From the NCBI GenBank assembly GCA_021234155.1, contig JAJEKV010000125.1:501178-565177 (forward strand): a stretch of DNA of 64,000 nucleotides, written 5' to 3'. The notes below the pieces were generated by a model. The model worked only from the letters and a program-made list of their open reading frames with translations. It had not been told where the DNA came from and ran no database searches. A program made the position numbers and the translations under genes. This document shows positions 4,205-43,664 of this stretch, one piece after another. Every line of letters starts with the position of its first letter. Position 1 is the stretch's first letter. The DNA comes from Isoetes taiwanensis. Lineage: Eukaryota > Streptophyta > Lycopodiopsida > Isoetales > Isoetaceae.

Positions 4205-4516
4205 GACAACAATGATTTCGACAATGGACGATAAAAAAAGAAGACTCCATCAGGTAATTGGATTAATTGAGGATTATGGCTGATTTAATAGCTAAAATGC
4301 CTTGAGATCAAATATAATAAGCCCCGTAAGTAATCCAGGCAGTTAGGTTAGCCATACATCTAACCCGACCAAGCCTAAGGATAAGATGAAAAAGTCTAAA
4401 CTAATTCTAGTTTTTAACCCTTGATAGAAATTAAAGGGTTGCAAACAATTTCTTATTCAAATAAATTTCAAAGTACAATAGTCAATTAGCTTTAAATTCC
4501 ATAAGTTGGAATGAGT

Positions 4517-7500: not shown

Positions 7501-8447
7501 CCCTCAACTCCAAAATCTTTGTGCCCCCCTCCTCAATTGCTCTCTTTTTTGAAGACCTTAAATTGAGTGAGGAATCTAATCTAGCCTCAACTCCGGATGC
7601 TTTTTGCTTCCACTTCCTTGCTAAGCTCGGCTAGATCCCCGCCCCCCGCTTGCTCTTCAAGCAATTGCATCCTCCACCTTCCATTTTATGTGCTCAAACT
7701 TCATAGCACTACCGTCACTTCCATCCATCTCTTTGTTGAAATGCCTCCAACTCGACATCGATTCAAGTAATTAGTCTCGGCCTCATGGACTAGCTTAGAA
7801 TATACTGCCCTTTCCCCTTCCCTATGCTTCAAAGTCTCGTATAGCTGCAGTCTCGTCTCCTGTAAATTCTGCATCTCCTTACATATGCTTTCCTTCAAAG
7901 AGGATCTGCTCTCAAGAAATACATTCAAACTGTCCAGATCCTCTTTTTTGTAGAAAGTATCATAGGACTTGTGGCCCTTGGCATTGCTGGACTTGACTGT
8001 TACAACTTCAGTCAAAACCTCGGATTCTTTGACCTTGCTTTTAGCTGTGGCTGTTTTTTTAACATCATCCCAATCAACTGATTCACCTTTTAAGTGTAAG
8101 GCAAATGCTCTAGCAAAATACAGGGGAACATAGTGATTCTGTACATCTTTCCTACCGAATGCAAACTCATACCACTTAAAAAATTCTGCCTGGTCTTCCA
8201 ACTTCACCAGCTCATCCTTGTACCCGTACCTGGTAGGTTCCTTAGATCCCCAAACTTCTGTCACTAAAGAGTTGTACTCTGCAAATTTTTCCTTGAATTT
8301 CATATTCGCCAGATCCCTTGCAGAAAATACTGTGTCCTCCTTGCTGCAGCCAGGACTTCCAGACTTCAAATGTGTCCCTGCTTTGGAAGCCCTGGGAGAT
8401 TTTCGGACTGATGCAGGGGCAGCACTCTTCTTTGGTGTCTTTGCCAT
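4517..8447 (-). pseudogene. Ulp1/C48-type cysteine protease gene, frameshifted
   Basis: This is a multi-exon minus-strand gene starting at ATG 8447 and ending with TAA at 4517-4519. Its N-terminal part is Lys-rich and Ser/Pro-rich. A Cys-containing segment lies near 7226-7513, and a basic nuclear-localisation-like stretch near 5560-5640. The protease core has the HHVLV histidine region and the QLDNVSCGLYV region with the Gln and nucleophile Cys typical of Ulp1 proteases. The expected catalytic Asp position reads Asn (VLNSM). Splice junctions 5552/5487, 5003/4925 and 4736/4657 all keep frame. Breaks are a frameshift just after VLNSM (about 5040), another near 7730 and more towards 7640. Ulp1 domains are common in plant Mutator-like and CACTA elements, but I see no transposase here. 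I conclude it is a decayed transposon-associated or captured gene. Confidence 0.6.
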
Positions 8448-21417: not shown

Positions 21418-21692
21418 TCACCAAATATGAGCAAAAAATGCTTAGGATCAGAGCAGACAAGAACCGGTAAGGGATTCTGGTTCAAACTATCATGAACCTC
21501 ATGAAAACATGGAAGATACGTGGAAAATACGCAAAAAGTACGGAAGAAATATGCCAAGATCGGCAAAGAATCTGATATATGAACAGGAATCAAGAGCACA
21601 ATGGTTGAAGGCAAGCAGGACACGAGACAGATGCCTAGAAGGCTCAAGACTGGCGTTGAACCGGAATGGTTAGACAAGAAGGAGGTGCCTCC

Positions 21693-21788
21693 TTATATAT
21701 CTAGGCCAACGGTCAAGATTGCGCCACTCTAATGGATGAGATCATGCCAAGTGTCGCGCATGCATCTAGGTTCTAGAATATTCTAGAA
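21693..21788 (-). promoter_or_regulatory. Candidate gypsy LTR promoter with HSE and TATA box
   Basis: On the minus strand, TTCtaGAAtaTTCtaGAA-type pentamers in perfect 5-base register occupy 21788-21771. About 70 bases further downstream is a TATATAAGG box (about 21700-21691). The gag ATG follows about 275 bases later. Four alternating GAA/TTC units are a complete heat-shock element. Distal HSE, then TATA, then leader, then gag is the order expected of a heat-inducible LTR promoter. I did not delimit the LTR ends. Confidence 0.5.
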
Positions 21789-21844
21789 TCTCCTAAAAAC
21801 AGCCCCGCATATAAGAAAGATATGAAGGACTGTTTTTAACAAAT

Positions 21845-21925
21845 ATTGGTAGTGCACTTGGCAAAGGTATGTGATTCGCAACTGAAGGTTGTGAGTTCAC
21901 CCTTATCTTGTGTAACTACCCTTTT
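21845..21925 (+). mobile_element. Possible tRNA-derived SINE head
   Basis: The stretch TTGGTAGTGCACTTGG resembles a tRNA D-arm with a pol III A box. About 35 bases on, GGTTGTGAGTTCACCC resembles a degenerate B box and T-arm. No poly-A tail or target-site duplication is clear, and it could be chance or a decayed tRNA-like relic. Confidence 0.3.
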
Positions 21926-21931
21926 GCATCC

Positions 21932-21999
21932 ATGTGACGACCATTTGTACATACGAGTATAATGTTCATATAATACGAATATCCGTATGGTCGTCACAT
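21932..21999. repeat. 68-bp foldback with 13-bp perfect arms
   Basis: ATGTGACGACCAT at 21932-21944 is the exact reverse complement of 21987-21999. The loop of about 42 bases is AT-rich and itself partly self-complementary. It could be a tiny foldback element or a decayed hairpin terminus. Confidence 0.6.
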
Positions 22000-22640: not shown

Positions 22641-23097
22641 GGGAAAAACTCTGAAATACCCTTATGTTTTGCTAAAATTGACAAAACGCCCCTGGTTTTG
22701 GGGGTATTTTTATGGAAATGACCATAACGTTTTTGTGATAATCCAAATGGGAATGAGTCTTTTAAATCTATTGTAAAGGAGAATGAGATCTTTCTATCAA
22801 ATGTAAGATCACATAAATCGGAGTCTTAAATCACAAGTTATGTTATTTTTAATACACAAGAAAATTGTAGAAATTTCAAAGGGATTTACGAGACCATAAC
22901 TTGAGATTTCGGAATCTGATTCAGGAGATCTTAACTTTCATGAAAAGGTCTCATCTTCTTCTACAATATATCTGAAAGACACCACATCATTTGGATTAGG
23001 TAAAAAAAGTTACGGTCATTTCCATAAAAATACCCCCAAAACCAGGGGCGTTTTGTCAATTTAAGCAAAACATAAGGGTATTTGAGAGTTTTTTCCC
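22641..23097. mobile_element. Foldback/MITE-like element with ~95-bp terminal inverted repeats
   Basis: The arm 22641-22735 starts GGGAAAAACTCTGAAATACC. It is matched in reverse complement by 23003-23097 with only a few differences, including the shared GCCCCTGGTTTTGGGGG segment. The centre, about 270 bases, is AT-rich and non-coding. This fits a non-autonomous DNA transposon. The flanks are AT-rich (AAATT on the left, TAATT on the right) and no exact target-site duplication could be fixed. Confidence 0.75.
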
Positions 23098-23749: not shown

Positions 23750-23849
23750 CTAGAAAAGGGCCCGGCCTGATGGCCGGGCCCTTTTCTTTTGTTCCTTTCC
23801 TCGGCTCGGCCGGCCTCGCCTCGGTTTGGCTCCACCCACGTGCCCTATC

Positions 23850-25000
23850 TCCCTCTCTCCTCTCTCTCCTCTCTGTCTTCTCTCTCTTCTCTCTCCTATC
23901 TCTTCCCTCTCTCTCCCATGTCCCTTCGCTCTCTCTCTCTCTCTCCCCTCTCTCTCTTCTCTCTCTCCTTTCCCTCTTCTCTCTCCTATCTCTTCTCTCC
24001 CTTCTCCCTTTTTTCTCCTCTCTCCTTTCCTTTCTCTCTTCCCTCATCTCTCTCTCCTCTCTCTATCTCTCTATCTCTATCTCTATCTCTCTCCTTTCTT
24101 TTCTTTATCTCTCTCTCTCTCTATCTCTCTCTCTCTCTCTCTATCTTTCTCCTTTCTTTTCTCTCTCTCTATCTCTCTCTGTCTCCCTCTTTTCTGTCTT
24201 CTCTTCTCTCTCTCCCCTCTCTTTCCCCTGTCTCTCATCTTTCTCTCTCCTCTTTTTTCCTTCTCTCTCCCCTCTCTCTTCTCTCTCTTCTCCCTCCTCT
24301 CTATTCTCTCTCCTTTCTCTCTCTTCTTTCTTCCTTGTCTCCTTTCTCTCTTTCTCTCTCTCTCTCTCTCCTCTCTCCTCTCTCCTCTCTTTCCTCTCTC
24401 CACTTTCTCTTCTCTTTTCTGTCTCTCTGCTCTCTCTATATGTCTCCCCTCTCTCTCTACCGTTCTGTCTCTCTCTGTCTCTCTGTCTTCCCTCTCTCTC
24501 TTCCCTCTCTCTCATCTCTCTTCTCCCTCCTCTCTCTTCTCTCCCCTCTCTCTCTCCCCCCCTCTCTCTTCCCGGAGGCCGGCCGAGCCTCGATTTGGAC
24601 CCCATTAACACTTTTGACTGAGCCCCTTCCCTTTTCTAGCATCTCTCTCTCCTCTCTCTCCTTTCTCTGGTCTCTCTCCCCTTCTCTCATATTCTCCCTC
24701 CTCTCGCTCCTCTCTCTTCTCTCTCCTCCCTTTCTTGTCCCTCCTCTCTCCCTTTGCATCTCTTCTCCCACTCTCTCTTCTCTTTCTCCTCTCTCTTCTC
24801 TCTCCTCTCTTTCTTCTCTCTTCTCTCTTTTCTCTCTCTTCTCTCTCCCTCCTCTCTCCCATCTCTCTCTTCTCTCTCTCCTCTCTCTGCTCCCCTTCTC
24901 CCTTTCTCTCTATACTCTCTATTCTCTCTTCTCTCTCTTCTCTATCTCCTCCTCCTCTCTCTCTCCTCCCCTCTCTCTTCTCTCTCTTCCCTCTCTGTAA
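23850..25000. repeat. 1.15-kb CT-rich microsatellite tract
   Basis: The plus strand is almost wholly pyrimidine, made of CTCTCT, CCTCTCTC and TTCTCTCTC runs. It is broken by a few purine-containing words and by one GC-rich insert near 24570-24610 (GGCCGGCCGAGCCTCGATTTGG-like). Long open frames on either strand (Ser/Leu/Pro or Arg/Glu repeats) are artefacts of the repeat. Confidence 0.95.
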
Positions 25001-25002
25001 AG

Positions 25003-26290
25003 TATTATCCATAAGGAGCCTACTTACACCTACTACCATGCAAGTCCATATACACACATGCCCTACTACCAATTCTAAAGTATCACTCATGAGAAGAACA
25101 CTACCAATTCCAAAGTATCACCTATGAGGATCTTACTCACATCTACTGCACTCCATGGTATTACACAGTCTTATTCACACATACTGCTCAACCCTCTATT
25201 CCATTACCAACAAAGTATCATTCATGAGTAACATACTCACACATGCCCATGAGGCCACATCTACTACCTCTGCTACCAATTCTAAAGTATGTCAATTCTA
25301 AAGTATCGCCCATGTGAAGCTTACACACACCCATCATACCCATCATACTTACTACCAATTCCAAAGTATCAGCTCCAGAATATTCTATTTTGAGCATTTG
25401 CAAGGTTTCAAGAAACTTTCTACTTTTAGACTGAGGTGCTTCTAGAGCATAGATGGTTGCCCTATAGCATCTAGAACACTCTAGAACATTCTATTTTGAG
25501 TTTTTACAAAGTTTTAGCAAACTTTTCTGTTTTTAGACTACCGTACTTTCTATTTTTAGACTGAGATGCTTACCCTAGAGCATCTGAAACATTCTAGGAC
25601 ATTCTATTAATGTTTTTACAAAGTTTAAGCAAACTTTCTATTTTTTAGACTAAAACTTTCTATTTTTAGATTGACGTGCTTACCCTTGAACGTCTGCAAC
25701 ATTCCAGAAAATTCTTATTTTGAGCATTTGCAAAGTTTCCAAAAACTTTCTATTTTTGGATTGAGGTGCTTACCCATGAGCATCTGCAACATTCCATAAC
25801 ATTCTATGTTGAGCATTTGCAAAGTTTCAAAAAACTTTCTATTTTTAGATTGAAACTTTCTATTTCTAGACTGAGGTGCTTGCCCATGAGCATCTGGAAC
25901 ATTTCAGAACATTCTATTTTGAGCATTTGCAAAGTTTCAAAAAACTTTCTATTTTTAATTTTGAAACTTTCTATTTTTAGATTGAGGTGCTTGCCCATGG
26001 CTGGAACATTCCACGACATTCTATTTTGAGCATTTGCAAAGTTTCAAAAACTTCTATTTTTTGAAACTTTCTATTTTTTTAGACTTTCTATTTTGAGGTG
26101 CTTACCCATGAGCATCTGGAACATTCCACAACATTCTATTTTGAGCATTTGCAAAGTTTCAAAAAAACTTCTATTTTTAGACTGAGACTTTCTATTTTTA
26201 GACTGAGGTGCTTACTCATGAGCATCTGGAACATTCTAGGACATTCCAAGAGATTCTAGAACATTCTAGAACTATCCTTGAATTAATTAG
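25003..26290. repeat. Satellite-like region of unit 1 with HSE-bearing monomers
   Basis: After a 450-base non-tandem part shared with 30662-31110, degenerate monomers of roughly 110-125 bases follow. Each contains CTTTCTATTTTTAGA, GAGGTGCTTACCCATGAGCA and then a GAACATTCCAGAACATTC-type word. In that last word the GAA and TTC triplets alternate every five bases, for example at 25702-25714 and 25897-25914. No protein is encoded. Confidence 0.85.
26229..26271. promoter_or_regulatory. Nine-unit HSE-like pentamer array in unit 1
   Basis: Triplets at 26229, 26234, 26239 and so on to 26269 read GAA, TTC, GGA, TTC, AGA, TTC, GAA, TTC, GAA. Seven of nine match the alternating nGAAn/nTTCn rule in unbroken 5-base register. 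The array sits at the satellite end nearest the Helitron 5' terminus. Confidence 0.55.
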
Positions 26291-26334
26291 GCCCCAGCCT
26301 TAACTAAGCATGGACTTCATATTATTTCAAGAAA

Positions 26335-26520
26335 AGACTGGTTGGTCTAGTGGTAAGGGTGGGGGTTTGGGGGCAATGTCGGGGTTGAGTCCGTGGTAAA
26401 CCAAAAAAATTTTGTCCACCAAACTTGGGAGCTGAGAGGCCAAGGCCCACGGACGACCCAGATCGCGCCACGTGGCGCCTCCTCCACCGTTGGATGGGCG
26501 TGGGTTTCACTAACACTCAC
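26335..26520 (+). mobile_element. tRNA-derived SINE-like segment, copy 1
   Basis: An exact A box TGGTCTAGTGG lies at 26343-26353. A degenerate B box, GGGGTTGAGTCC with one C lost, lies at 26381-26392. The body downstream (CCACCAAACTTGGGAGCT, then GCGCCACGTGGCGCC) is shared with copy 2 at 32468-32650. It lies just inside the 5' end of Helitron-like unit 1. Confidence 0.65.
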
Positions 26521-26639
26521 TCTTTCCTATTTTCTTATTATAATTAGACTAGAAAACGGGCCCGTTCTATCTTCCTTTTTTCCTCCTTTCTATTTTCTCG
26601 TTGGCCCTCGGCCGGCCTCGCCTCGGTTTGGGCCCACCC

Positions 26640-27672
26640 ATGTGCCCTATCTCCTATCTCCTATCTCTTCCCTCTCTTCTCTCTCCTCTCTCCTCTCTCT
26701 TCCCTCATCTCCCTTTCTCTCTCTCTTTTTTTCTCTTTTCTCTATCCCTCTCCCTGTCTCTCTTCTCTCCCTTTTTTGCTCTTTTCTCTCTCATCTTTCC
26801 TCTCTCTCCTAATCCGCCTCAGTTTGGGCCCTCTTCTTCCCTATGTCCCTCTCTTGTCTCTCTCTTCTCTCTCTCCTCTCTCCTCTCTCTTCCCTCATCT
26901 CCCTTTCTCTCTCTCTTTTCTCTTCTCTCTATGGGAGTCTCTCTTCTCTCTCCCTCTCTCTTCTTTTTTCTTTCTCCCTCTCTTCTCTCTCTCTCCTCTC
27001 TTCCTCTCTTTCTCCCTCTCTCTTCTCTTCTCTTTGTCTTTCTCCCTCTCTCCTCTCTCCCTCTCTTCTCTCTCTCTCTCTCTTTTCTCTCTCCTCTCTC
27101 TCTATTTCTCCCTCTCTCTATCTCCCTTTGTCTCTATTCTCTCTCCTCTCTCTTCTTTGTCTCTCCTCTCTCCTTGCTCTCTCTCTCCTCTCTCTTCCTC
27201 CTTCTTCTCTCTCTCCTCTCCCTCCCATGCTCCCTCTCTCTCTCTCTCTCTTTCTCTCTCCTCTCTCTTCTCTCTCTCTCTCTCTCTTCTCTCCCTCTTC
27301 CCTCTCTCTTCTCTCTCCTCCTCTCTCTTTCTCTCTCTCTCTCTCCTCTCTCTTCCCTCTCCTCTTCCCTTTTCTTTTTGTTCCTCTCCCTCTCTCCTCT
27401 TTCTCCTCTCTCTCCCCCTCTCTTTGGGCCCACCCGTGCCCCCTCTCCCTCTCTTTCTCTCTCTTCTCTCTGGCTTCTCTCTCTCTCCTCTCCTCTCTCC
27501 CTCTCTCTTCCCTCATCTCCCTTTCTCTCTCTCTCTCTTTTCTCTTCTCTCTATCCCTCTCCCTCTTGTCTCTCTTCTCTCTCCTCTCTCTTCTTTTCTC
27601 TCTCCCTCTCTTCTCTCTCTTCTCTCTCTCCTCTCTTTCTCCCTCCTCTCTCTTCTCTTCTCTCTCTCTCTT

Positions 27673-27728
<56 letters not shown>

Positions 27729-29120
27729 CTCTTCTCCTTTTCTCCCCCCTCTCTCTCTCTCCCTTCTCTCTGCTTTCTCTCTCCTCTCTCTTCTTTGTCT
27801 CTCCTCTCTCTCCTTCTCTCTCTCTCCTCTCTCTTCTTCCATCCTTCTTCTCTCTCTTCTCTCTCCTCTCCCTTGCTCCCTTCTCTCTCTCTCTATCTTT
27901 CTCTCTCTCTTGTCTTTTCTCTCTCTCTCTCTTCAAGGTTCTCTTCCCTCTCTCTTCTCTCTCCTCTCTCTCTCCTCTCTCCTCATCTCTCTTCTTTCTC
28001 CCCTCCCTCTCCTCTCTCTCCCCTCTTCCCTTTCTCTCTTCTCTCTCCTCTCTCTTCCCTCCTCTTCTCTCTTCTCTCTCTCTCTCTCTCTTCTCCCTCT
28101 CTCCTCCCTCTCTCTCTCTCTCGAAATCTCCTCTCTCTCCTCTCTCTCTCCTATCTCTCTCCTCTAAAAAAATTTTCTCCCCTCTCTCTATCTCTCTCTC
28201 TCTCCTCTCTCTCTTTTCTATTTCTCTATCTCCTCTTTCTCTCTTCTCTCTCCTCTCTCTTCCTCTCCTCTCTTCTCTCTCTCTCTCTCTCCCTCTCTCC
28301 TCTCCTCTCTCTTCTCTCTTCCTCTCTTCTCTCTCTCCTCTCTCCTCTCTCTTTCCCATTCTCTCTCTCTCTCCTCTCTCTCTATTTCTCCCCTCTCTCC
28401 TCTCTCTCTCTCTCTCCTCTCTCTCTATCTCCTTCCTCTCTTCTCCTATTTCTCTCCTCTCTCTATTTCTCTCCTCTCTCTCTACCTTTCTCTCTCTTTT
28501 TCTCTTTCTCTCTCTCATCTCTCTTCTTTCCCCCCTCTCTCCTCTCTCTTCCCTCTTTCTTCTCTCTCTTCTCTCTCTCCCTCCTCTCTTTTCTCTCCTC
28601 TCTCTCTTTCCTTTCTCTCTCTCTTCTCTCTCTCTCCTCTCTCTCTCTCTCTATTCTCTCTCCTCTCTCTTCTTTGTCTCTCTCTCTCCTCTCCTCTCTC
28701 TCTCCTCTCTCTTCCTCCTCTCTCCTCTCTCTTCTCTCTCCTCCCATTCTCCTTCTCTCTCTCTCTCTATCTTTTTCTCTCTCTCTCTCTTTTCTCTCTC
28801 TCTCTCTCTCTCTTCTCTTCTCCTCTCTTCCCTCTCTCTTTCTCTCTCTCTCTCTCTCCTCTCCTCTCTCTCTCTCTTCTCTCTCCTCTCTCTCCCTCTC
28901 TTTCAAAGTCTTCCTTTCCTCTCTTCTCTCTCTCTCTCTCTTCCCTCTTCTCCCTCTCCTCTCTCTCTCTTCTCTCTCTCCTCTCTCTATTTTCTCTCCT
29001 CCCTCTCTCCTCTCTCTTTCTCTCTCTCCTCTCTCTCCTCTTTCCTCTCTCTTCTCTCCTCTCTCTCTCCTATCTCTCTCCCTCTCTCTCTTTCTTTCTC
29101 CCTCTCTCTCTCATCTCCTA

Positions 29121-29160
<40 letters not shown>

Positions 29161-29700
29161 CTTTCTCTCCCTCTTCCCTCTCTCTTCTCTCTCTCCTCTT
29201 TCTCTCTCATCTCTCTCTTTCTTTCTCCTCTCTCTCCCTCTCAAACTTTCCCTTTTAGTTTCTCTTCTTTCTCTCTCTCTCTTCCCTCCCTCTCCTCTCT
29301 CCTCTTTCTCTCTCTCTCCTCTCTCTCTCTCTCCTCTCTCCTCTCTTCTATTCTCTCTCCTCTCTCTCTCTCCTCTCTCTCTAGAACATTCTCTCTCTTT
29401 CTCTTTCTCCTTCTGGATCTCTCTATCTCTCTCTCCTCTCTCTATCTCCCTATTTCTCTCCTCTCTCTCTATTTCTCCCCCTCTCTCTCTATTATTTTCT
29501 CTCTCTTTTCAATTTCTCTCTCTCCTCTCTCCTCTCTCTCTCTCCTCCTCTCTCTCCTCCCCTCCTCTCTCCTCTCTTTTGAGGGTTCTCCTCTCCTCTC
29601 TCTCCTCTCTCTCCTCTCTCTTTCTCTACCTCTCTCTCTACCTTTCTCTCTCTTTTCTATTTCTCTCTCTCCCTCTTCTCCCTCCTCTCTCTTCTCTTTC
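26640..29700. repeat. 3-kb CT-rich microsatellite tract
   Basis: About 3 kb of nearly pure pyrimidine lies on the plus strand, mainly (CT)n with CCT and TTC variants. There is a pure run of about 25 CT units near 27670-27725. GC-rich GGGCCCACCC-type words interrupt it near 26820 and 27425. It occupies the same place in unit 2 as the shorter tract does in unit 1, next to the Helitron 3' hairpin. Confidence 0.95.
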
Positions 29701-30090
29701 CTAATTTCAGGGTTTCAAAAAAAGGCTATTTTTAGACTCTCCCTTTCTATTTTTGCATCCATTCCTCGGCTCGGCCCCTCTCTCCTTTTCCTTCTATTTT
29801 GAGCCCACCCATCGACCTTTTCATTTGCATCCTTCCTCATTTCGGCCCCTCAGGAGCCTCGCCTCGATTTGGGCATGCTTGGGATTATTCTCGGCTCGGC
29901 CTCGGCCTTGGTAGAGACCTCTCCTCGATTTGGGCTCACCCATGTAGTCTACATAGAGGAACTTAGTCACATCTACTACAAATTTCAAAGTATCATTCCT
30001 ACTATCAACTCCAAAGTCTCAAATATCATTCCTCGGCGAGGCCCCGGACTCCGGGGCTTCGCCTCGGTTTGGGCCCATCCACTATCATAT
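29700..30090. repeat. Recurrent GC-rich boundary motif region
   Basis: Between the pyrimidine tract and the satellites, a motif of the form CTCGGC..CGCCTCGGTTTGGGCCCACCCA occurs several times (about 29765, 29850, 29890, 30030-30075). The same motif appears at the edges of, or inside, the pyrimidine tracts near 23800, 24570, 26600 and 26815. It may be an older repeat unit in which the CT runs expanded. No gene is seen. Confidence 0.6.
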
Positions 30091-30661
30091 ATTGGGAGCT
30101 TAGTACATCTACTATGAATTTTAAAGTACAACCCCTATATGTTCAAGAAGCTTTCCCTGTTACTTAACATCCATTGAACAACCACCCATGAGGAGCTTAC
30201 TCATGCCTATTACTAATTCCAAAGTATCATCTATGCATGAGGAGTTTACTCACACATATTACTATTTCTAAAGTACTATCCATAAGGAGCCTACTTATAC
30301 CTACTACTACTTTCAAAGTATTACCTATTGGGAGCTTAGTACATCTACTATGAATTTTAAAGTACAACCCCTATATGTTCAAGAAGCTTTCCCTGTTACT
30401 TAACATCCATTGAACAACCACCCATGAGGAGCTTACTCATGCCTATTAATAATTCCAAAGTATCAACTATGCATGAGGAGTTTTATCCACTTTCAAAGTA
30501 TTACCTATTGGGAGCTTAGTACATCTACTATGAATTTTAAAGTACAACCCCTATATGTTCAAGAAGCTTTCCCTGTTACTTAACATCCATTGAACAACCA
30601 CCCATGAGGAGCTTACTCATGCCTATTATTAATTCCAAAGTATCACCTATGCATGAGGAGT
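30091..30661. repeat. Three copies of a ~180-bp repeat
   Basis: The unit starting ATTGGGAGCTTAGTACATC begins at 30091, 30327 and 30507. Each copy continues through TTTCCCTGTTACTTAACATC and a CCCATGAGGAGCTTACTC stretch. The spacing is 236 and then 180 bases because the first copy carries an insertion. The copies are nearly identical. Confidence 0.9.
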
Positions 30662-32410
30662 TTTATCCATAAGGAGCCTACTTATACCTACTACCATGCA
30701 AGTCCATATACACACATGACTTACCACCAATTCTAAAGTATCACTCATAAGGAGAACACTACCAATTCCAAAGTATCACCTATGAGGATCTTACTCACAC
30801 CTACTGGACTCCAGGGCATTTCACAGTCTTATTCACACATACTACTCAACCCTCTATTCCATTACCAATAAAGTATCATTCATGAGTAGCATACTGACAC
30901 ATGCTCATGAGGCCACATCTCTACTACCTCTACTACCAATTCTAAAGTATGTCAATTCTAAAGTATCATCCATGTGAAGCTTACACACACCCATCATACC
31001 CATCACACTTACTACCAATTCCAAAATATCACCTCCAGAATATTCTATTTTGAGTATTTGCAAGGTTTCAAGAAACTTTCTACTTTTAGACTGAGGTCTT
31101 ATTCACACATAATGCTCAACCCTCTATTCCATTACCAATAAAGTATCTTTCATGAGTAACATACTCACACATGCCCATGAGGCCACATCTACTACCTCTA
31201 CTACCAATTCTAAAGTATGTCAATTCTAAACTATCACCCATGTAAAGTATCACCTCCAGAATATTCTATTTTGAGCATTTGCAAGGAGACTGAGGTGCTT
31301 CTAGAGCATAGGTGGTTGCCCTATAGCATCTGGAACACTCTAGAACATTCTATTTTGAGTTTTTGCAAAGTTTTAACAAACTTTTCTGTTCTTAGACTAC
31401 CGTACTTTCTATTTTTAGGCTGAGATGCTTACCCTAGAGCATCTGAAACACTCTAGGACATTCTATTTGAGTTTTTACAAAGTTTAAGCAAACTTTCTAT
31501 TTTTAGACTGAAACTTTCTATTTTTAGACTGAGGTGCTTACCTTTGAGTATTTGCAACATTCCAGAACATTCTACTTTGAGCATTTGCAAAGTTTCAAAA
31601 AACATTCTATTTTTGGATTGCGGTGTTTACCCATGAGCACCTGGAACATTCCACAACATTCTATTTTGAGCATTTACAAAGTTTCAAAAAACTTTCTATT
31701 TTTAGACTGAAACTTTCTATTTTTAGATTGAGGTGCTTACCCATGAGCATCTGGAACATTCCAGAACATTCTATTTTGAGCATTTTTTAGCTGAGATGCT
31801 TACCCTAGAGCATCTGAAACACTCTAGGACATTCTATTTGAGTTTTTACAAAGTTTAAGCAAACTTTCTATTTTTAGACTGAAACTTTCTATTTTTAGAC
31901 TGAGGTGCTTACCTTTGAGTATTTGCAACATTCCAGAACATTCTACTTTGAGCATTTGCAAAGTTTCAAAAAACATTCTATTTTTGGATTGCGGTGTTTA
32001 CCCATGAGCACCTGGAACATTCCACAACATTCTATTTTGAGCATTTACAAAGTTTCAAAAAACTTTCTATTTTTAGACTGAAACTTTCTATTTTTAGATT
32101 GAGGTGCTTACCCATGAGCATCTGGAACATTCAAGAACATTCTATTTTGAGCATTTGCAAAGTTTCAAAAACTTTCTATTTTTAGACTGAAACTTTCTAT
32201 TTTTAGATTGAGGTGCTTACCCATGAGCACGGAACATTCCACAACATTCTATTTTGAGCATTTGCAAAGTTTCAAAAAAAATTTCTATTTTTAGACTGAA
32301 AGTTTCTATTTTTAGACTGAGGTGCTTATTCATGAGCATCTGGAACATTCTAGGACATTCCAAGAGATTCTAGAAGATTCTAGAACATTCTAGAACATCC
32401 TAGAGTATCC
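30662..32410. repeat. Satellite-like region of unit 2, including a recent 371-bp duplication
   Basis: This is the counterpart of 25003-26290. Around 31100-31300 part of the left block is repeated. From 31419 a 371-base block is followed at 31790 by a nearly identical copy (to about 32160). The monomers carry perfect four-unit GAAcaTTCcaGAAcaTTC words, for example at 31754-31771 and 32125-32142. Confidence 0.85.
32343..32410. promoter_or_regulatory. HSE array upstream of the aminotransferase-like gene
   Basis: Triplets in exact 5-base register start at 32343: GAA, TTC, GGA, TTC, AGA, TTC, GAA, TTC, GAA, TTC, GAA, then TCC, GAG, TCC. The six from 32368 to 32395 are perfect. Heat-shock factors bind as trimers to at least three such units, so this could bind several trimers. 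It lies about 545 bases upstream of the start codon at 32954, inside the 5' part of Helitron-like unit 2. Confidence 0.6.
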
Positions 32411-32467
32411 TTGAATTAATTAGGCCCCAGCCTTAACTATGCATGGACTTCCTATTATTTCAAGAAA

Positions 32468-32650
32468 AGACTGGTTGGTCTAGTGGTAAGGGTGGGGGGT
32501 TTGGGGGGCAATGTCCAGGGTTCGAGTCCCTGGTAAAGCAAAAAAATTTTGTCCACCAAACTTGGGAGCTTTTGAGGGGCCAAGGCCCACGGACGGCCGA
32601 GATCGCGCCACGTGGCGCCTCCTGGACCGTCGGATGGGCCGTGGAATACT
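32468..32650 (+). mobile_element. tRNA-derived SINE-like segment, copy 2
   Basis: The A box TGGTCTAGTGG (32476-32486) and B box GGTTCGAGTCC (32519-32529) both fit the pol III consensus and are 43 bases apart. The T-arm CCAGG...CCTGG can pair over five bases (32515-32533). The rest does not fold as a full tRNA, so this is a SINE head, not a tRNA gene. The body ends near the Helitron 5' terminus. Confidence 0.7.
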
Positions 32651-32731
32651 CACAGACTCACGGACAGACTCACGGACGCTATTTCTTTATTATATAGGAT
32701 TAGATAATAATAAGAGGTACAATGCTTCCTT

Positions 32732-32953: not shown

Positions 32954-35900
32954 ATGGGGGCTGTGGCAAATGGAGATGGTTTTGGGGCTGGACATGAGGT
33001 CATTAACCTCTGGTCTGGCCCCCGGTCTCTCAGTACTAGCCTCATGTATTCTTTTGCTCAGGTGCGTTTGATATGTTATTAGAGATCAATTAATTTAGAG
33101 TGGGTTTTCCACTCTTCTATTGTTTCAATTTTGCTGGAGTGGTATAGGAAACGGATTTTCTTCTATGCAAAGAGTTTTGCATTTGTAAAAATGCGGAATT
33201 TTCATGGTGCCCAGATTTGTGAGATCCGGTAAATTTTTCTTTATAGACAGTGGTATTTAGCAGCGGCTCTTTAAATCCCTTAATCATTCAGAAATATGCC
33301 GATTAAAGGTGGTGGTCGCCTTGGCACTGTTGTATCCAATCAGACCACCTTTACTAGTTTTTGGGCATCATATATTGTACATTGTAACTTCTTTTTCTTC
33401 TCCTTCTCCACTTTGCAACATCAAAATCTCGGCGGGTTTGATGATTATCTGAAGTACATCCTGATTTTGTCGTCATAATTCATTGTGAATGCAAGAAAAA
33501 TGATATTCGATAAAAGACAAAATGCTAATAAAACGTTGTGCTTTGCTACTGCATCGCCATGCAGTAAATCTGTTTTTGATTGGATGAAATGGGAACTTTT
33601 ATGCAGAGAGATGATACAGAAGTTGTTGACGAACCTCTGTATGCGCATTATCTTAAGAATACTTGTGCAGAAAGACCATATCGTGAAGAATTATTATCTC
33701 AGATGGTAACATTCTGTCAACTTTCTAAGATTAGCAATTAAGTAGTTCTCAGTAAAGTTCTAAAGTCTTTCCGTGTCAGCATAGGAATCAGATGGGAACA
33801 AGGTAGTTCATGAGCTCATTCATGGTCACTGCACAAAACGTTATCGGTTTTGCAAGGTAATTTTTATGTTCTTATTGTTGTATGTGGGCTGAAGCTTGAC
33901 ATTGTGTTCTCTAGCTAACTGCTGGCTCCTCATTTGTGGTTGTTGATTTTTAACAGCACATGGCCAAACAGCGGACAGCATTGCTGACAGATGAAATTTT
34001 GCTTAAGGGAAAACATATCATTCTTATAAGAGATCCTCTCGAATTTCTTGTAAGATCAACCTTTGCATCATTTGATTTGGAAAATGGCACGATTACCTTT
34101 CTTATGGCCTTTTCATTTGGTTATGTAGTTTATGTTCAGGCAACAAATATTTACATGTTAACAGGACATGCTTGAAAATCTGGAAATTCTTCATTCAGGG
34201 AGCGAACTAAGTCTAACATATCAAATTGCTTAGATAATTCTTCAGCTGGCATGGGACAGGGAACCCTGATGGTAGAAAAATGTCGGTCTAGATTGTATAA
34301 TAATTGACAAAGAAGACTCTAGTTCTTGTGGAAAAGCAACTGGAAAGACACCCTGTGGTCCTAATACCTTTGATTTATATAATGTCCACTCACTAGGCAT
34401 ATACTACATATAAATGTGTTGCTAGAACTTATCTAACGGTGCAATATTTAATGGCAGCCATCATTTGACGCAGTGATACCGGCATCACTCCATGAGCTTG
34501 AATTGTCACATCTGGTAGCTATCTACAGTGAACTACATAGATTGGGCCGTGCACCACCAATAGTTGATGCCTCTACACTTCGCCAAAATCCAGAGGTCTA
34601 TTTTTCTACTATTATATGTTGCTATTATCATACTAGCGTAAAATTTATCTCAACCTATGAACTTTCATGCTCAGATTCGCCACATAAGATATCAAAAAAT
34701 GCCTTGACAGCCAACTGACTGACTGCCAACTCATCCAATACTGACATGTACGAGTTAGCTTTCTTAGCATTTTTGAATTAACAGACTTATATCTACAGCT
34801 AGACACTTAATCTGATTATCCTGGTCTGGTCAGTCATGACAGCTACCCTTATCTGAAGTGCGACTCACTGTTTCTGGGGCAGGTCCCTTAACTGGGAGAA
34901 GTACTTGAAGAAAGCTGCTGTTTCTTTGGTCTTGAAGTAAGACCCACATCTGCTGTTGGACATTCCAGTAGGTTCATTGGATTGCAGACTATCTCAATGG
35001 AAAAATAAACGAAGATGTGCTGTAAAAAGGTCAAAGGAAATGGCCTTGGACTTGAAGTTTACAACAAGGTATATCCCCTGATCAGGTGAACGTGTGCTTG
35101 CACGGGCTTCTAAAAAGTAGGCTACTGTTAGCCTTAACACTACAGAGGTTGAACCTAAAAGGCATGCACTGGAACTCAGTCAGGAATATTGTGAACCACA
35201 TAGTAGTTACATCAGCTTGATTAAATGTTATCAATGTTGGAGCAGTGCACTGGAACTCAGTTATGTGAACCACATAGTAGTTACATCAGCTTGATTAAAT
35301 GTTATCAGTGTTGGAGCAGGGGCAGAGTAAGGATGCCAGACTGGGTAAGCATGCATACTCGCCCCCTGCCATGACCAAGCATTTGTACGTTCTCATCTCC
35401 TACAACTCCTACACTTAACTCTCAGTTATGGCATGCATGTGCCGGATTTGGTGTTTGAAAGCCTACCTGAAGAGCGATGAATGAAGCGAGCATGCACCAT
35501 GTCATTCAGGTGCGTGCTGGAAGGGACCTCCCAAAAATATAAGATCTGTTTCATACAGGAGCAGATCAATAGGGTGTCTTTAGATCCTCAAATTGCATAA
35601 GTGGCAGATGGTTCAACGAAGCCATCGGCAGGATTGAAATTTAAAGATAATCAGAAGCATATTGGGGATCATGGTAGAGGACATAGCTACATCTATTTAG
35701 CTTCATATGCTTATTTGAGGTTTAATCTCTCAAGGAGTATTAGTGTGTATTTGGAACTGACTCAACATACTTAACAGACATGAGCGGCTGTGATCATGCC
35801 ATCACATCCACCATTGGCTTCATGTAGGGGGTCATTGTATAATTTTCCTAGCCACGTGCTTTATGATCTTTCTTGTTTATCATCTATTCATTGTTGTGAT

Positions 35901-38900
35901 TATTCCTTGACACTATCATTAACTCATGAGTCAATGGCAGGATAATATCATCATTGTTAATCAAGTATATGATGTATTAGTTCAGCCTTAATAATAGAAG
36001 CTTGCCACCTTGCTTTGGCTTCAGGTTCTTATCCTTTTTTGCTTTTGCTTCAGGGCATGTTGCGAGCTTTATGCACGTCACTTGGAATTGGATTTCAATC
36101 CACCATGTTAGAGTATGTTTTGTACTATTTGGTTCATAGGAGTTATCAATCGAAGTTTTTGTAACACATTTTTTTTTTCATTCAAACTTGCGTAAATCTG
36201 AAGTCCATCTGATGGTCTTGGAATAGCTATGCTCAATTTTGATAGGGATAACTACATGTTTGTCTGAAGCTTCTTGTGACAATGGTAGGTGGAAAGCAGG
36301 TCCAAGAAAAGAGGATGGGATCTGGGCTCCATGGTGGTATGGTCAAGTTCATAAATCGACTAAATTTGAACCATTGCCAGCTTATCCTAGAAAGGTCTAT
36401 ACTAAGCACTTCATGGGAAAATAATCGTGGGCAAATAGCGTTCTTTCATGTTGCCATTTATAGGGAACGAACTGAAGTCTACTAATTAGATATCTTCCTG
36501 CCTTACGTAGTTTTTGTAGGAAGGATAAAGAAGATTCCTAGTTTAGCTTCATATGACTGTGTACGTTCTAAGATTCTCTGGTTATGCGTTGACAGTAAAT
36601 TTATTGTTCTTTGAGATTGCACCTGTGTCGTCATGTTAGCATTCAAGGATCATGGTTGGACTTTTGAGCTTTCTTGTATTGCATCAATCTAAATGCAATT
36701 AAAATTCGACCTTTTTAAGTTTATTGAGTTGTTGGTGTTCAGAAGAATTAGTTTACACTTCTGTGAAGTTTCTCCTTTTGCATGTCTGCCAAACCCTTAA
36801 GCATGGATGGGGAGAGAGATTGAAAGAGATACAAGGGAAGACTCTGTACATAAAATCTCTTCAAATTAGCCAGCGGCTCGCAAAAGTTCTGGAGAATATA
36901 ATAGGATAGTAGTGAGATTTTTGGTGCCAGTTGAAGGCTTTTCTATTCTCTTTTCTGGTATGGTTTCACTTCCTCTTTGACCCTTAATGATGCGTTTCTT
37001 TTTGGGTCTTAAAATACTGGAAAAAGGTACGATAATACCCCAACTTCTTACACAGCACCCTACCTTCTTAGGATTATTTCTCAGGGTGATTGATATGTAT
37101 GGCTATCAAAATTTCCATAGACATTTAATGGCTGAGTGTGTGTTGTGAAGGCATATCCCCAAGACATCTTAAAATGTTGGGGGTGGCAGACATTTTTTTT
37201 AGAAGCTAAATTTGAAATGACCTTTACTCTCTCTTAAACCTTTATGTATAAGGATATATGCTCTTATCTTTTCTTCCAGCTTGTTCATTCCAAAATTACT
37301 GATTGCCTATCAGTTAAACCTGAAATATTCATGAAATTTCCGAGAGTTGCATTTTCAACATTAAACCACAGAAGGTCATGCTGGTGAACTGACACGCCCT
37401 CTGCTGCAATAGACCAAGCTTTCTCAATTGACCTGATGGGAACATGTTTCAGGAAGGGAAATATGATTAGTATTTATGCATGCATCTGATAGTCTTAATT
37501 CCCTCTAAGGAATAGTTTAGTGAGGTCTACAAGAAATTAAAAGAGCATCTGGTACAAGAATAGTATCTTTTAAGCTTCCATTTCATACTTTTGTTTTACT
37601 TAATTAAAAAACGTTATATTCTAGGCACTAGCTATATCACATCAATAAAAAAGGATCACCTCGTTTTATTTACAACTGGCTTCACATATCCATTGAGCAG
37701 GAAAAAATAGGACATTAATATTTGATTTTGCAGGCATTTGATGGCAAATTATTTGGATTGTTGGAGGAATGTCGACCATTTTACAACATGTTAAAACGTC
37801 GAGCCTTGAAGCCTGCTATCTGTGAAACCAATCAGAACCCCTCACCAACTATTTGCTTGCCAGTGCCAGCAAATGCGAATACCTTAATCTGGGTTGGTGA
37901 GGAACTTGTTCCTCGTGAAGAAGCAAAGGTGATCCATAGCATTTCTATTTCATTTATGACACTCAATTATTCTTTATATAATCGAGTCATAGACATACTC
38001 GTCGTAGTATAAGAAGATTCTAATGTGAATAGAAATGAAATGAGATCTTATGTTTGTGAGACCATCAGGTATAGACAGACAGGCTGATGTATTTGTGCAT
38101 GCATATCATGGGCTGGTATTTGCCTCTGCAAGGCCTTGTGGAACATCTTGCTTTATTACATCATCCAAACACGCAGAGACATTATGAAGTTTAACTTTTA
38201 CACTCATTGTCTGGTGCTTGATTATTATATGCTTAATCTTATGTCTCCTCGGTCACAAATTGTGTGGGGGTGACCTTGTTCTCTGTAATGGTTTTGTGAA
38301 CTTCTAGGAAAAACAGAAATAGATATAAAGCATACTTTATATAAACTGAGAAATGAAATGTCTTGGAGTTAAAGTGAAAGCCTTTTTCCCTCTCTTTATT
38401 AATAGTTCTAAGAGTATTTTAGGTGTCCGTTTTTGATTCCATTGTCCAAGGTGGGGATGGTGTTTGGGAGGGCCTGCGGGTCTATGATGGGAAAGTATTT
38501 AAGCTGGAAGAGCATCTTGATAGGTATTTCTCATTCCAGGGATTTAACATTATTCAATCAACCTTCTGATTGATACAAGTTTACATCCACAAACAGGTTG
38601 TTTGACTCAGCAAAAGCATTGGCCTTTCATAATGTTCCTAGTCGTGAAACTGTAAGTCTGAATTTAGGGAACACTAAAATCCGTTATTTAGCTAAAGGTT
38701 AGAAGTGATTTAACATGCAATTGGAAGGGACTAGATTACATGCGTAGGTGGCATATTAGGACCACACCCTATCTTCATTTGTTTTGAATAAGTTCGTTTT
38801 CATCTAAGCACATTTTTCCCTTGCTATTTGAACTGTCTAGGTTAAAAAAGCACTCTTTTCAACATTAATTGTGAATGGGATGCGGGATAATGTTCATGTC

Positions 38901-41900
38901 CGCCTTACTTTAACCCGTGGGAAAAAGGTAGGATTTTATCTATTGTTCCATGACTTCTTCAACTCTTGATTTAATTTCGAAGTTTCCATGTGGAATTTAC
39001 TGGATTATCAATTGAAAAAAAGCAAGGTTATAATAAAGAAAATGTCATGTATTTTATTTTTCAATCAATATAAAATAATGCTTTTCATGCTGTATTTAGG
39101 CTTACTAGATGTTGTATGAATGATTTAATAACCTAAAGGAAATAAGACAATTCCACTGTGAAGGGCCCATGAGGCAAAGTAGTTGAATTTTTCCATATCT
39201 TAGCATATCAATCAATTGCATGTGAATATTTTAGAGGACAAACACATGCATCTAAGTACTATGCTGATTCAAAATGCGGTTTCCATTTTCTGTATATTTC
39301 AATGAAAGTCTGATAGCGATTGCCACCTAGCACTGGGGTTGGAAAATAGCTTTCAGGGATCAATTCCTTCATTCATAATTGAAGAATAACCAGTTGAAAA
39401 ACCGCTATCACAGCGTGGCCTAGTATAGATTTGAGCAAGTTGATGCAAGATTTCATCCTAATATCAAATCTAAGTTGCCCTTTTTTTTTTTTTTTTTTTG
39501 GTTTGAAGGCATGGTTGGTGAGCCAGTGGGTTTTGAACCCTGGTGGGGATCACCCCAATCCAAGGCCTTACCACTAGACCACCACCGCAATGGGTAAATC
39601 TAAGTTGTCTAACCTATATTCCTTTTAGGTTCTGACCCAGTCTTGATTCAAGGTATTTCTAGACAATTCAAGCTTCTTCCTGGATTAAACTTATCTACTT
39701 TCTGCAACTCTTTCGAAGCTAGCCTGATTGCACTAATTGGAGGCTTCAGACTGTTCTCCCCAAGTCCCTGATGTTTTTTTTGGAGTTTAGTAAATCTGCT
39801 ACAAGCTTAATTGGATATTACAGTTCTTCAAAAAGATCTGGCTAGGCAATCCTCACATTTTCTCACTCCAGAAATAATCATAGATCGCGCTAACACCATT
39901 TTAACGATACAATGCATTGCTCCCCTGAGATGAAAAACCACAAATGAAACTAGAAAGCACGTGCTAACTCAACCTAACAGAAATATGGTCTTTCATTTGA
40001 GCATAATGATGTGGCACAATAATAGCCCCCCAGCTCCAATTGTACAAATTTGACACTAGAACACACATGTACTAATAGCAATTATCCCTTCATGTCATAT
40101 GTCGGTTGTTTTTCCAGTTTCATCAGTACGTCTTTGCTTTTTAATATACACCAATTCCTTTGACAGGTGACATCTGGAATGAGCCCAGCTTTCAATTTAT
40201 ATGGTTGTACGCTCTTAGGTATGGGAGTGACATTTTGAAATAGAATCTGCCAAGATGCGATTTGTGTAATTATTGACAAGCATTAGTTATGTTTTTAGTT
40301 GTTCCTGAATGGAAAGCACCTGTTTATAATAATAATGATGGTATACGACTTATCACAGCAGCAACGCGCCGGAATTCGCCAAATGTACTGTTTTCGAGTT
40401 TATTTTTCCATGCCAGCTGGTATATTGCAGAAATTGACAAGAAATTACTCTTTTGATTGCCAGAGTCTGGATTCTAAGATACATCACAACAATCTCATCA
40501 ATAACATCCTAGCAAAGGTGGAATATTATTTAGGGGAAGTGTGTTACAATTATGTACAGTTTGGCTTAGAAACTAGGGAGAAAGATTTATTAATGCTATG
40601 GAAGTATAAACAGCTCGGAGAACATAATGCACATTTTAGTAACATGTAACCTAGGTACTAAATGAAATTTGAAAATTAAAGTAAGTTAGGTGTTGTTAGC
40701 TGCTGAGAGGAGACTCTAAACTGTCCCATAATAGACCCCATTTTATGTGGCAAATGGATATCCAAATATGAATAAAACCCTCATCAGTGGTATTGAGGAA
40801 ATGATCTTTGTAAAACTGCATTTTTGTGGGAATCGTTCTTCGAATTCTTGGTCAAGATCATGCCGGCTAAGCTGATTTATCTCTTTTCTAAAAATATCAA
40901 GTGATTGCATTGTAACTGATATTGGTAAGGGTTAACTGTCCCAAATTAAGCCGTAATAAGGTAGCCCAATGTGAATCTTTAGATACCAACATTTCTTTAT
41001 GTTCTTCGTCACCCAAGTCTGTTGAAGATTTGAGAGCCAGCCATTGTCTACCACATTGAGAGTTTTCTAACTGATGCATCCTGTGGGATAAGTGTTACTA
41101 CTTGAAATGCTTGTCTAGCTGCAAGAGAGAAGTTGCAAATTCTGCTAGGTGAATTGGATGTTGCAAATTCTCCTAGCTTAATTGGATGTGGGACTGAAGC
41201 GTCACCTTTGCCTAGAAATTTATTTGAAGTCTCTCTATTTGTGTCTGCAATTCGGAATCTTTTATTGGGATTCTAACATCCATTCTAACAATCTGATGAA
41301 TAGAATAGGTGGAATAACATTTTGGAGAAAGTGTTACAACTATCTGCAGTTCAGCTTATGAAATAGAGAAATAGTTATAAAGGTCAACATGTGAATCTTT
41401 AACAGGATCTATGAACGTCAGGATTTTCTTGACAACTTGTGAAGGATGAAGCCCTAACATTGGTTTACTAATTTTCTTAGTATTATTTGTTGCATAGGTA
41501 GAAAGTAACTTTGCTGGAGCAGATGATGCAGTAATGCTTGACTGTGATGGATTTGTATCAGAAACGAATGCGACCAATATAGTGAGTGGGTGCTAAATTT
41601 TCTTATTTCATGTGTCTTTTTCTATCCTTTGTCGCATATCAAGATTCTTCATTCTTCATATGGACTTTCCTTTGTCTACATTAAACATACCATGTCATCA
41701 TCATTGAGACCACAGAATTATTTAATGGTCTTGTAGACATCAAAAAATGAATTTGTACAAGAACTATTCTTTGTTTTCCATTTTGTAGGTTTTGATGATT
41801 TTGTTTGTGCTTTGTTAAGTTTATGGTGAAGAAAGGCCGCGTTTTTACACCTCTTGCGGACTTCTGTCTCCCAGGGATAACAAGGCAGACGGTAAGTTTT

Positions 41901-43664
41901 GCTTACACTTTGAAGAAACACTTCACATGTAATGAAGTTACAGTGGTATATCTCTAACTTCATATTAATAATGGTTAAACTGGGCCTGTGTGTCCAAAAC
42001 CACCTTATCTCTATATCCTAATTCAGGGGGGTTTTACTGTCATTGTGCTTATGCTTTAGTCAGATTTCCACTTTCACCCATAGTAGAGAACTTTAAACCT
42101 CAAAGAGGTGATTTGATTTGATTTTTGTGTAAATGTACATTACTTCTTTAATAATGCCATTTATAGGTCATTGACCTTGTGAAGAGAGAAGGAATTCCAA
42201 TGGAGGAACGACGTATTACCATCAGTGAAGTACATACTTCAGATGAGGTAAAGTGTGGTTAGGTGGTTTTTGTTCAGTTTTGCCTCTAAGCTCTTTGGTA
42301 GAAGGTTTGCTCTCTTCTGTAAGTTGCCTGCTCACAAAGGGCTTAAGAATACTGCACCATGATATCCTTTTTTCCCTCAACTAATCAGGCTCTCAGTTAG
42401 ATTAACATGATACTATGAAATGGGAATCGTGTTATCAACACACACACCACAAGATAGAAGGAGAACAATATCTGTTGCACTGATATAAGCAGTCTTTTGC
42501 ATGGAGAAGAGGTGTTTCCGTAGTGGATTGTGGATGGGATTTGCCAAAATAGTGAGAACTCTTTCTCTCCTAAGAACATTATAAAACCCTGGAATTATTC
42601 ACACATTTGGTATTCTCTGATCAGATAGCGTTTAACTTTGTGCACCCTTTTGCCTACTAAGGATCTTTCACAAGCTTGACAAAGAAGCCTTACAGATTTG
42701 CAAACAGAAGCTTCGGTCAATAAACCTAGAGCAGAGCATTAGAAACACCTACATATGTCGTTAATGATTGTAACATAATGGTTTCTCCTCAAAATCCAGG
42801 CCACAAGACTGTTTACGGCTCGAAATCATTGACTTTTTGTGGGCATGTGACGTTTGACAAATGCTATGCACAAAAATGCCTCTGAGAAACAGAAAGGAAG
42901 GCCAAAACGTCTCCATATTAGATAACATTTTGTGTCATATTGCAGCCATGGAAGCTCTAATATTAATGTCCTTTTTGCCAATAGTCATATTGATTTTTTG
43001 ATATGTGTTGTTGAAAATGCAACTTTGCAGGTCTGGACAACAGGTACAATGGGAGAGTTGACACCGGTTAGTACCAGCATCCAAATCTTTATTCATAAAT
43101 TGTATCACTATAATTTTAAGCCGTTTTTTTTAACTATGTGATAAGTAACTAGAATTGGCCATATTCGAATTTGATCTGGCAATGCCCAGATGTAGTTCTT
43201 GATGATCCAGGTTTTCTGCAAGAGCCCTGAGGTTTTGCATTAACTTAACATAACCAAAGTGCTTGACGACTCAAGAATCTTATTCCTGAATTTATTGGGG
43301 CAACCAAGGTGCTTGGCAACTCAAAAATCTGATTCCTGAATCGCGATGTGATGTTTGTTGCTCATTCCTCTTATACTCATTCCAATGTGTATTAACAAGA
43401 AGATGATAAGACCTTGTTTTTGTTCACCAATGTTTGCCTCCTTACCAAAGAGCATGCTCATTTACGACGCATGCTAATTTAAGAAGTTATCCTAGTCTGG
43501 TGTTACTTCTTGTTCTTCAATTCCTCTTATTATGGTCTTTACTTGTCCAGGTGATAGAGGTTGATGGTCGTAAGATAGGGAGCTCATGTGCAGGTCCTAT
43601 TACACGGCAATTGCAATTGGCTTATGCCACTCTTACAAAAGCAGAAGGGGTGCCAATCCCTTAG
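32954..43664 (+). CDS. Branched-chain aminotransferase-like protein: P-loop domain fused to class IV aminotransferase (19 exons)
   Basis: Exons: 32954-33061, 33607-33705, 33785-33856, 33957-34049, 34458-34595, 36054-36112, 36289-36394, 37734-37928, 38423-38523, 38597-38651, 38841-38927, 40167-40218, 40299-40384, 40464-40517, 41498-41581, 41820-41891, 42167-42247, 43031-43066 and 43551-43664. All introns are GT-AG and all phases agree, giving 563 residues. Start: first ATG after the in-frame TGA at 32882. Residues 1-240 resemble a sulfotransferase-type P-loop domain (SGPRSLST at 21-28, LIRDP at 116-120). The rest is a PLP-dependent class IV aminotransferase: VWEGLR about 304-309, catalytic Lys422 in SKIHHNN, Glu457 in [14 protein letters not shown] 480-485, TTGTMGEL about 517-524. 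It matches, by memory, the Arabidopsis BCAL family (At3g54970, At5g27410). No transit peptide is evident. The substrate is unproven. Ile-Pro C-terminus. Confidence 0.9.
35165..35320. repeat. 81-bp tandem duplication in intron 5
   Basis: The unit starting TGCACTGGAACTCAGT at 35165 recurs at 35246 with a small deletion in the second copy. Both copies end with GTTGGAGCAG. It lies in the 1.46-kb intron 5 of the aminotransferase-like gene and shows no coding sense. Confidence 0.85.
39478..39595 (-). mobile_element. tRNA-derived SINE in intron 11, with 12-bp target-site duplication
   Basis: On the minus strand a short element has the A box TGGTCTAGTGG (39581-39571), the B box GGTTCAAAACC (39539-39529) and a 19-base poly-A tail (the T-run at 39481-39499). 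It is flanked by a perfect 12-base direct repeat AAATCTAAGTTG at 39466-39477 and 39596-39607. Head, tail and target-site duplication together prove a retroposed SINE. Its A/B spacing matches the SINE heads at 26.3 and 32.5 kb, so they likely share a tRNA ancestor. It lies well away from the exon edges. Confidence 0.92.

Follow-up and report, generated by a model that had tools for sequence, protein, structure and literature searches.

We analyzed a window of 64,000 nucleotides from the Isoetes taiwanensis genome (contig JAJEKV010000125.1, forward-strand positions 501,178 to 565,177), in which two non-autonomous Helitrons lie head to tail on the minus strand. Helitron B (26549..32704) has its TC 5' end at 32704 and its CTAG 3' end at 26549-26552, and Helitron A (23750..26548) finishes in a 3' hairpin (GGGCCCGGCC/GGCCGGGCCC) with CTAG at 23750-23753. 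TCTAAT and a stretch of ATAATAA mark the start of both elements, and CTAG marks their end. The G+C-rich hairpin ahead of CTAG is found in A and in an autonomous relative elsewhere in the genome, L059, with only a 12-bp palindrome (AACGGGCCCGTT) in B. The interiors of A and B consist of ~110-bp repeats and long pyrimidine tracts. In B the repeats (31319..32350) contain 3- and 4-unit heat-shock elements (HSEs) at 31560, 31754, 31931 and 32125, and a counterpart set occupies 25451..26236 in A. No Rep frame was seen by eye among the window's open reading frames of at least 110 amino acids, and Rfam returned no window match at the gathering threshold. As separate observations, near-pure TC-type pyrimidine tract runs for kilobases on one strand within the Helitrons (23848-24996 and 26664-29697), with GC skew to -0.87. 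The motif CTAWWWWTAG, which we take to be the MADS N10 CArG type, occurs 21 times in the window, 20 of them inside the two Helitrons and 19 of those in the 110-bp repeats (25550-32306).

Next to the 5' end of Helitron B, a gene on the plus strand spans 32954..43530, its exons picked by eye and its 3' limit approximate. Exons from 32954 match Sulfotransfer_5 (E 2.8e-39), and further frames to ~43.5 kb match Aminotran_4 more weakly (E 3.6e-11), which fits a two-domain gene. Its ATG at 32954 lies 249 bp past the end of the Helitron and 538 bp from the end of an HSE array inside the element. An earlier sequence-only reading had placed such an array 0.55 kb upstream of an intact metabolic gene. The distance is correct, and the gene, with its exons pieced together, looks real on the strength of its domain matches and is at most putatively intact.

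The array itself (32342..32416) lies beside the 110-bp repeats of B and is built of 15 in-register pentamers, 10 of them perfect: GGAAC ATTCT AGGAC ATTCC AAGAG ATTCT AGAAG ATTCT AGAAC ATTCT AGAAC ATCCT AGAGT ATCCT TGAAT. The sequence-only reading had counted 11 triplets at exact 5-base spacing, six of them perfect in a row, followed by degenerate units to a fourteenth and an end at 32410. The phase holds, as does the longest perfect stretch of six, which starts at 32368; the 11 units are made up of nine perfect cores, one with a single mismatch (AGGAC) and one with two (AAGAG). The continuation is also present, but the end is not where it had been put: units 12, 13 and 14 have one mismatch apiece, and the array stops at 32416 with a perfect unit 15. 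In Tandem Repeats Finder (TRF) the array appears as 6.6 copies of a 10-bp repeat, TCTAGAACAT; TRF also detects its sister, a homologous array in Helitron A (26225..26281; TRF 26225-26272) with four consecutive perfect units from 26254. The definition of an HSE by sequence, at least three alternating nGAAn units in 5-bp phase, fits the window array.

Runs of this kind are far more frequent than base composition predicts. Five runs of at least four units were observed in the window versus 0.02 per shuffle in 200 dinucleotide shuffles, of which four contained a run of four or five and none a run of six. Across the 32 triplet/reverse-complement pairs compared, GAA/TTC was the sole pair with runs of at least four. 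Genome-wide (1,658,258,908 bases in 1,110 contigs), the five-unit pattern GAAnnTTCnnGAAnnTTCnnGAA gave 3,620 + 3,718 matches, a total of 7,338 that counts long runs repeatedly, the number of arrays being smaller. Control patterns gave 63 + 45 matches when reversed, 2 + 4 with the core shifted to AGA/TCT and 5 + 5 with a spacing of six bases instead of five. The shuffles, the other triplet pairs and the reversed, shifted and widened control patterns together rule out a chance origin of the array.

Heat-shock-factor sites prefer AGAAn, with the fifth base free, and the arrays in this genome have that same preference. We compared 20 regions (L039-L058), hand-picked from the first 100 of the 7,338 matches, all on contigs C1-C24. 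Of the 69 TTC-nn-GAA spacers in the 33 distinct runs of at least four units found there, 50 are TA and 64 have A as their second base, and the spacer of GAA-nn-TTC takes 14 different dinucleotides. Units flanking 30 runs were perfect in 80 of 300 cases when in register, compared with 6, 1, 9 and 2 of 300 out of register; the in-register flanking units, which had not been used in finding the runs, again read A-G-A-A with a free fifth base. The exact 5-bp phase and the AGAAn spacer rule support the original identification of the motif as a heat-shock element. Isolated two-unit pairs at the same loci have TA in 32 of 84 TTC-nn-GAA spacers, a weaker preference, so the spacer bias extends beyond the long arrays.

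Evidence that the array belongs to the element comes from its copies. We fetched 30 loci (L009-L038), the best window matches among 1,847 first-look candidates for the 421-bp end region of the window element, a choice that biases conservation upward. With the window's own sequence counted among 30 copies and diversity taken in 25-base blocks, diversity is at most 0.26 per site over 32000-32699 and 0.71 in the next block, a jump that places the element's end there; the flanking sequence is not common to the copies, varying from one to another. The TC 5' end is present in most fetched copies and changed in a few, the motif leaving 4 of 30 unscored. Helitrons insert between A and T with no target duplication; the base before the TC end is A in the window and in several copies and other bases in others, tandem neighbors masking the other flank. 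In 10 of 30 copies a Helitron 3' end lies immediately ahead of the 5' end by a strict test that left 4 of 30 unscored. CTAG likewise abuts the following 5' end in the window (23750-32704) and on either side of L059 (1-110 and 8400-8460), an arrangement suggestive of concatemers forming or of insertions at Helitron ends.

The same copies bear on whether the array is a neutral minisatellite, a 10-bp TTCTAGAAnn unit grown by slippage and carried along in Helitrons, with a functionless match to the HSE. Its 10-bp period is as expected of such a unit, and copies differ in length by single units: the extra 10-base unit of the window array is absent from 26 of 30 copies, and the longest perfect run is six units in 4 copies, four in 21, three in 4 and two in 1. 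Nucleotide diversity (pi) in these close copies is 0.048 in the core and 0.010 in the spacer, much of the core variation falling at already degenerate units. The core being the more variable, purifying selection on it is not seen among recent copies, and the repeat may have grown neutrally. The TA preference of isolated pairs and the further tandem repeats in the same element (110 bp, TC tracts) point the same way. Set against this are a fifth base that varies while AGAA is kept, in units conditioned on run finding and in unconditioned ones alike, the retention of a run of at least three in 29 of 30 copies, and the presence of the motif upstream of a TATA box in the Ty3-like long terminal repeat (LTR) described below. 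Nor is a duplication origin an argument against function, since the ONSEN site too arose by duplication, of nTTCnnGAAn, according to the available text of the study describing it (PMC5059998). We regard a purely neutral array as unlikely.

The autonomous relative L059, read whole, has the same layout. In order, it presents the 3' end of its neighbor, a TC end at 104, a G-box, an antisense tRNA-like box (by eye), an HSE array at ~405-460, 110-bp repeats, a second HSE array at ~1840-1990 with seven perfect units at 1942, and an open reading frame at 3207-7745. The frame encodes 1,512 amino acids with matches to Helitron_like_N (PF14214; 1.2e-58), PIF1 (4e-54) and Pif1_2B. At the 3' end a hairpin with 16-bp perfect arms runs into CTAG, and the next Helitron, with an array of its own, follows directly. 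The first array, whose longest perfect runs are three units, is located 0.3-0.35 kb in from the 5' end. Transcription of the Rep/helicase gene would come from the array's side of the frame; the distance between the two, about 2.7-2.75 kb, counts against a promoter role. The second array lies ~1.2 kb before the frame.

Linkage between such 5' ends and Rep domains is not confined to L059. The end region of L059 gave 1,381 first-look candidates; for it and for the window end region 40 each were scored, the other candidates being unscored and giving no copy number. Helitron_like_N gave 1,813 first-look candidates, and all 150 that were scored exceeded the cut-off. The 150 scored Rep matches were set against 61 distinct 5' ends, drawn from 42 of 175 window-end matches and 41 of 44 L059-end matches (40 candidates scored per search; short fragments and repeat-unit matches left out). 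A Rep domain lies on the same strand 4.0-9.2 kb downstream of 7 of the 61 ends, compared with 0.028 expected within 10 kb under random placement (contigs C224, C1107, C1078, C1036, C564, C960 and C1025). One further Rep lies at 11.8 kb, none is antisense downstream within 15 kb, and one is upstream. At three of the seven linked loci the frame exceeds 1,500 amino acids (1,512, 1,516 and 2,964). This linkage covers only the copies with the top scores in each search, and for the majority of the 61 ends no scored Rep domain is nearby.

The Helitron context proposed in the sequence-only reading is thus upheld by the sharp boundary at the TC 5' ends, by CTAG and hairpin in A and L059, and by relatives encoding Rep/PIF1; the 5' TC, the 3' hairpin with CTRR and the Rep/PIF1 of autonomous members are all found in the family. 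HSE arrays near the 5' ends of these plant Helitrons are a real, non-random and family-wide feature. That reading had missed that the array is common to the whole element family, and a role in serving the element is the more direct interpretation. It had also left unmentioned the sister array in Helitron A, the 3- and 4-unit sites in the 110-bp repeats of B and a 4-unit LTR site at 21771.

The motif also occurs outside Helitrons. Sorted by similarity, the 20 hand-picked regions comprise ten of a second family, family II, five assigned to family I or to relatives of it (by BLAST for L056, by eye for L042 and L049-L051), two of a Ty3-like LTR family, a pair similar over short stretches to family II arrays, and one without a match among the fetched loci. 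Family II (L040, L041, L043-L046, L048, L052, L053 and L057) is ~1.25 kb long and TA-flanked, with long HSE arrays and, in most copies, a tRNA-like box. It was rejected as a canonical Helitron, with no hairpin and no CTRR end seen by eye.

The LTR family is represented in the window by an LTR-like copy on the minus strand (21486..21998), in which a 4-unit HSE at 21771 stands upstream, on that strand, of a TATATAAGG box (TATA by eye). This stretch is an ~85% copy of the LTR of L055, whose repeats at 1714-2235 and 7165-7687 are 93.8% identical with one HSE in each; a 261-bp probe gave 2,211 first-look candidates, of which 40 were scored. Retrotrans_gag, RVT_1 and RT_RNaseH_2 are matched in L055 or L054, and in L055 the matches are located between the two repeats. 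The RT_RNaseH_2 match, the gag-RT-RNase H order and an integrase-like frame after it (by eye) point to Ty3 as the affiliation of the family. For the gag-like frame in the window itself nothing matches at 0.01, and a shortened version yields only sub-cut-off matches, the best to DUF4939 (E 0.0043). An HSE in the LTR upstream of TATA, with gag and RT in relatives, is the layout expected of a heat-responsive, ONSEN-like LTR retrotransposon.

These other carriers bear on a further alternative, that the TTCTAGAA palindromes function in transposition, for instance as a Rep or replication structure near the 5' end, and are not a transcription-factor site. The arrays are indeed self-complementary, and in the aligned copies they hold a fixed position near the Helitron 5' end. 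An LTR retrotransposon and a TA-flanked family without recognized Helitron ends nonetheless contain the motif in the identical 5-bp phase, and a free GAA-TTC spacer is not expected of a palindrome. We consider such a signal very improbable.

Between the window array and the Helitron 5' end lie tRNA-like Pol III motifs on the plus strand (32476..32529), an A box TGGTCTAGTGG at 32476-32486 and a B box GGTTCGAGTCC at 32519-32529. The A box and B core are present in 30 of 30 fetched copies, with a diversity of 0.008 at 32475-32499, and a G-box (CACGTG, 32609..32614) is present in 29 of 30. Among the 20 hand-picked regions, 13 have a tRNA-like A/B box (at most two and at most one mismatches, respectively) within 400 bp of a run of at least five; of 19 box matches of this kind, 18 have the array on the A-box side, and, by eye, the second array of L059 is on the opposite side. 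The boxes adjoining the array are possibly a TFIIIC site or an insulator. A tRNA-derived SINE was rejected: ARAGORN found no tRNA in the window, fold z-scores of 0.47 and 1.96 were no better than those of shuffles, and the repeated unit continues well past the A box on its upstream side.

Heat-shock factor binds repeats in human satellite III, the DNA of nuclear stress bodies, to which the arrays here bear a likeness as predicted binding sites, the difference being that satellite III forms satellite blocks rather than dispersed, probable transposon promoters. The closest parallel is in Caenorhabditis, where, in the available text, Helitron HSEs are bound by HSF-1, nearby genes are heat responsive, and five full-length autonomous Helitrons are among the genes concerned (PMC6927752). 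As with the Hac-HSEs of that study, clustered tandem HSEs are found here in autonomous and many non-autonomous Helitrons, which supply many HSEs to the genome (PMC6927752). The host here, in contrast, is a lycophyte plant, and binding and heat response, demonstrated in Caenorhabditis, are in our case predicted from sequence. In the part of the article at hand, the authors report the enrichment as absent from the other metazoan genomes examined and possibly restricted to Caenorhabditis (PMC6927752).

Among plant elements, Brassicaceae COPIA elements with at least four adjacent nGAAn units (the 4P type) are associated, in the text available, with up to thousand-fold transcript accumulation (PMC5059998). 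ONSEN/COPIA78 and other heat-responsive Brassicaceae COPIA elements have at least four adjacent units in a transposon promoter, as the Isoetes elements do in a probable one, and in the window's Ty3-like LTR the site is likewise upstream of TATA (PMC5059998). ONSEN, however, is a Copia LTR element; the array here belongs to a Helitron, and gag, RT and RNase H matches mark the LTR family here as Ty3-like. The heat-shock-factor motif has also been reported in Arabidopsis Gypsy elements near proteotoxic-stress genes, a plant Ty3/Gypsy case as here; the portion of that report at hand describes motif matches near stress genes, not in-register arrays, and the elements are not Helitrons (PMC8725346). 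The sequence-only reading knew of no plant Helitron with such arrays, and the open-licence literature, outside which most subscription papers fall, yielded no description of one. One review notes in passing that, in wheat, an influence of Helitrons on where HSEs lie could matter (PMC12390881).

Taken together, these comparisons and the sequence features make it probable that the array is a heat-shock-factor binding array, or promoter, of a high-copy Helitron family, as in the Caenorhabditis Helitrons and ONSEN. Upon heat, heat-shock-factor trimers would bind the alternating AGAAn units, and the bound factor would raise transposase transcription in autonomous elements. Non-autonomous copies, both of those in the window included, keep that 5' end and would be mobilized in trans. 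A by-product would be many strong HSEs scattered across the genome, including the one that lies 0.54 kb upstream of the sulfotransferase/aminotransferase gene. We infer factor binding, heat induction and mobilization from this layout: the array in the window element and a complete enzyme-encoding relative of equal layout suggest that heat may wake these Helitrons, and it may also switch on adjoining genes. In the literature searched, HSE-loaded Helitrons are otherwise described only in Caenorhabditis, and an independent plant case would suggest that uptake of a heat-shock switch by Helitrons can recur. The predicted autonomous family makes heat-induced Helitron transposition directly testable.

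Compatible with a promoter of the element is the more specific proposal that the gene at 32954 uses the window array as its heat enhancer, the array being retained for this function. The proximity of the ATG, 538 bp from the array and 249 bp from the Helitron end, is suggestive, and the run of six perfect units is longer than the four of the strongest type in the available text on COPIA elements (PMC5059998). The heat response of Caenorhabditis genes near Helitron HSEs, as given in the text at hand, is a further precedent (PMC6927752). A 97% identical copy over 396 bp elsewhere in the genome implies, however, that the insertion may be young, and transposon silencing could mute the array. Heat induction of the sulfotransferase/aminotransferase gene is possible on this reading of the sequence; that the array has been kept for it we hold doubtful. 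The many copies of the array, the gene-proximal one included, are material for testing whether transposons rewire a lycophyte's heat response.

A broader and equally tentative proposal is that one promoter cassette, a long AGAAn array with a tRNA-like A/B box, is common to the autonomous Helitrons, the Ty3-like LTR and the TA-flanked family. If so, heat would free all of the carrier transposons together, and the array copies would serve both as a heat-shock-factor sink and as a pool of ready-made heat enhancers.

Two further repeat structures were noted in the window. A fold-back element lies at 22641-23096, with two 226-nt arms that are 79% complementary and separated by 4 nt, and at 62482-62914 a 68-bp unit containing a TCGACTCGCGAGTCGA palindrome is tandemly repeated.
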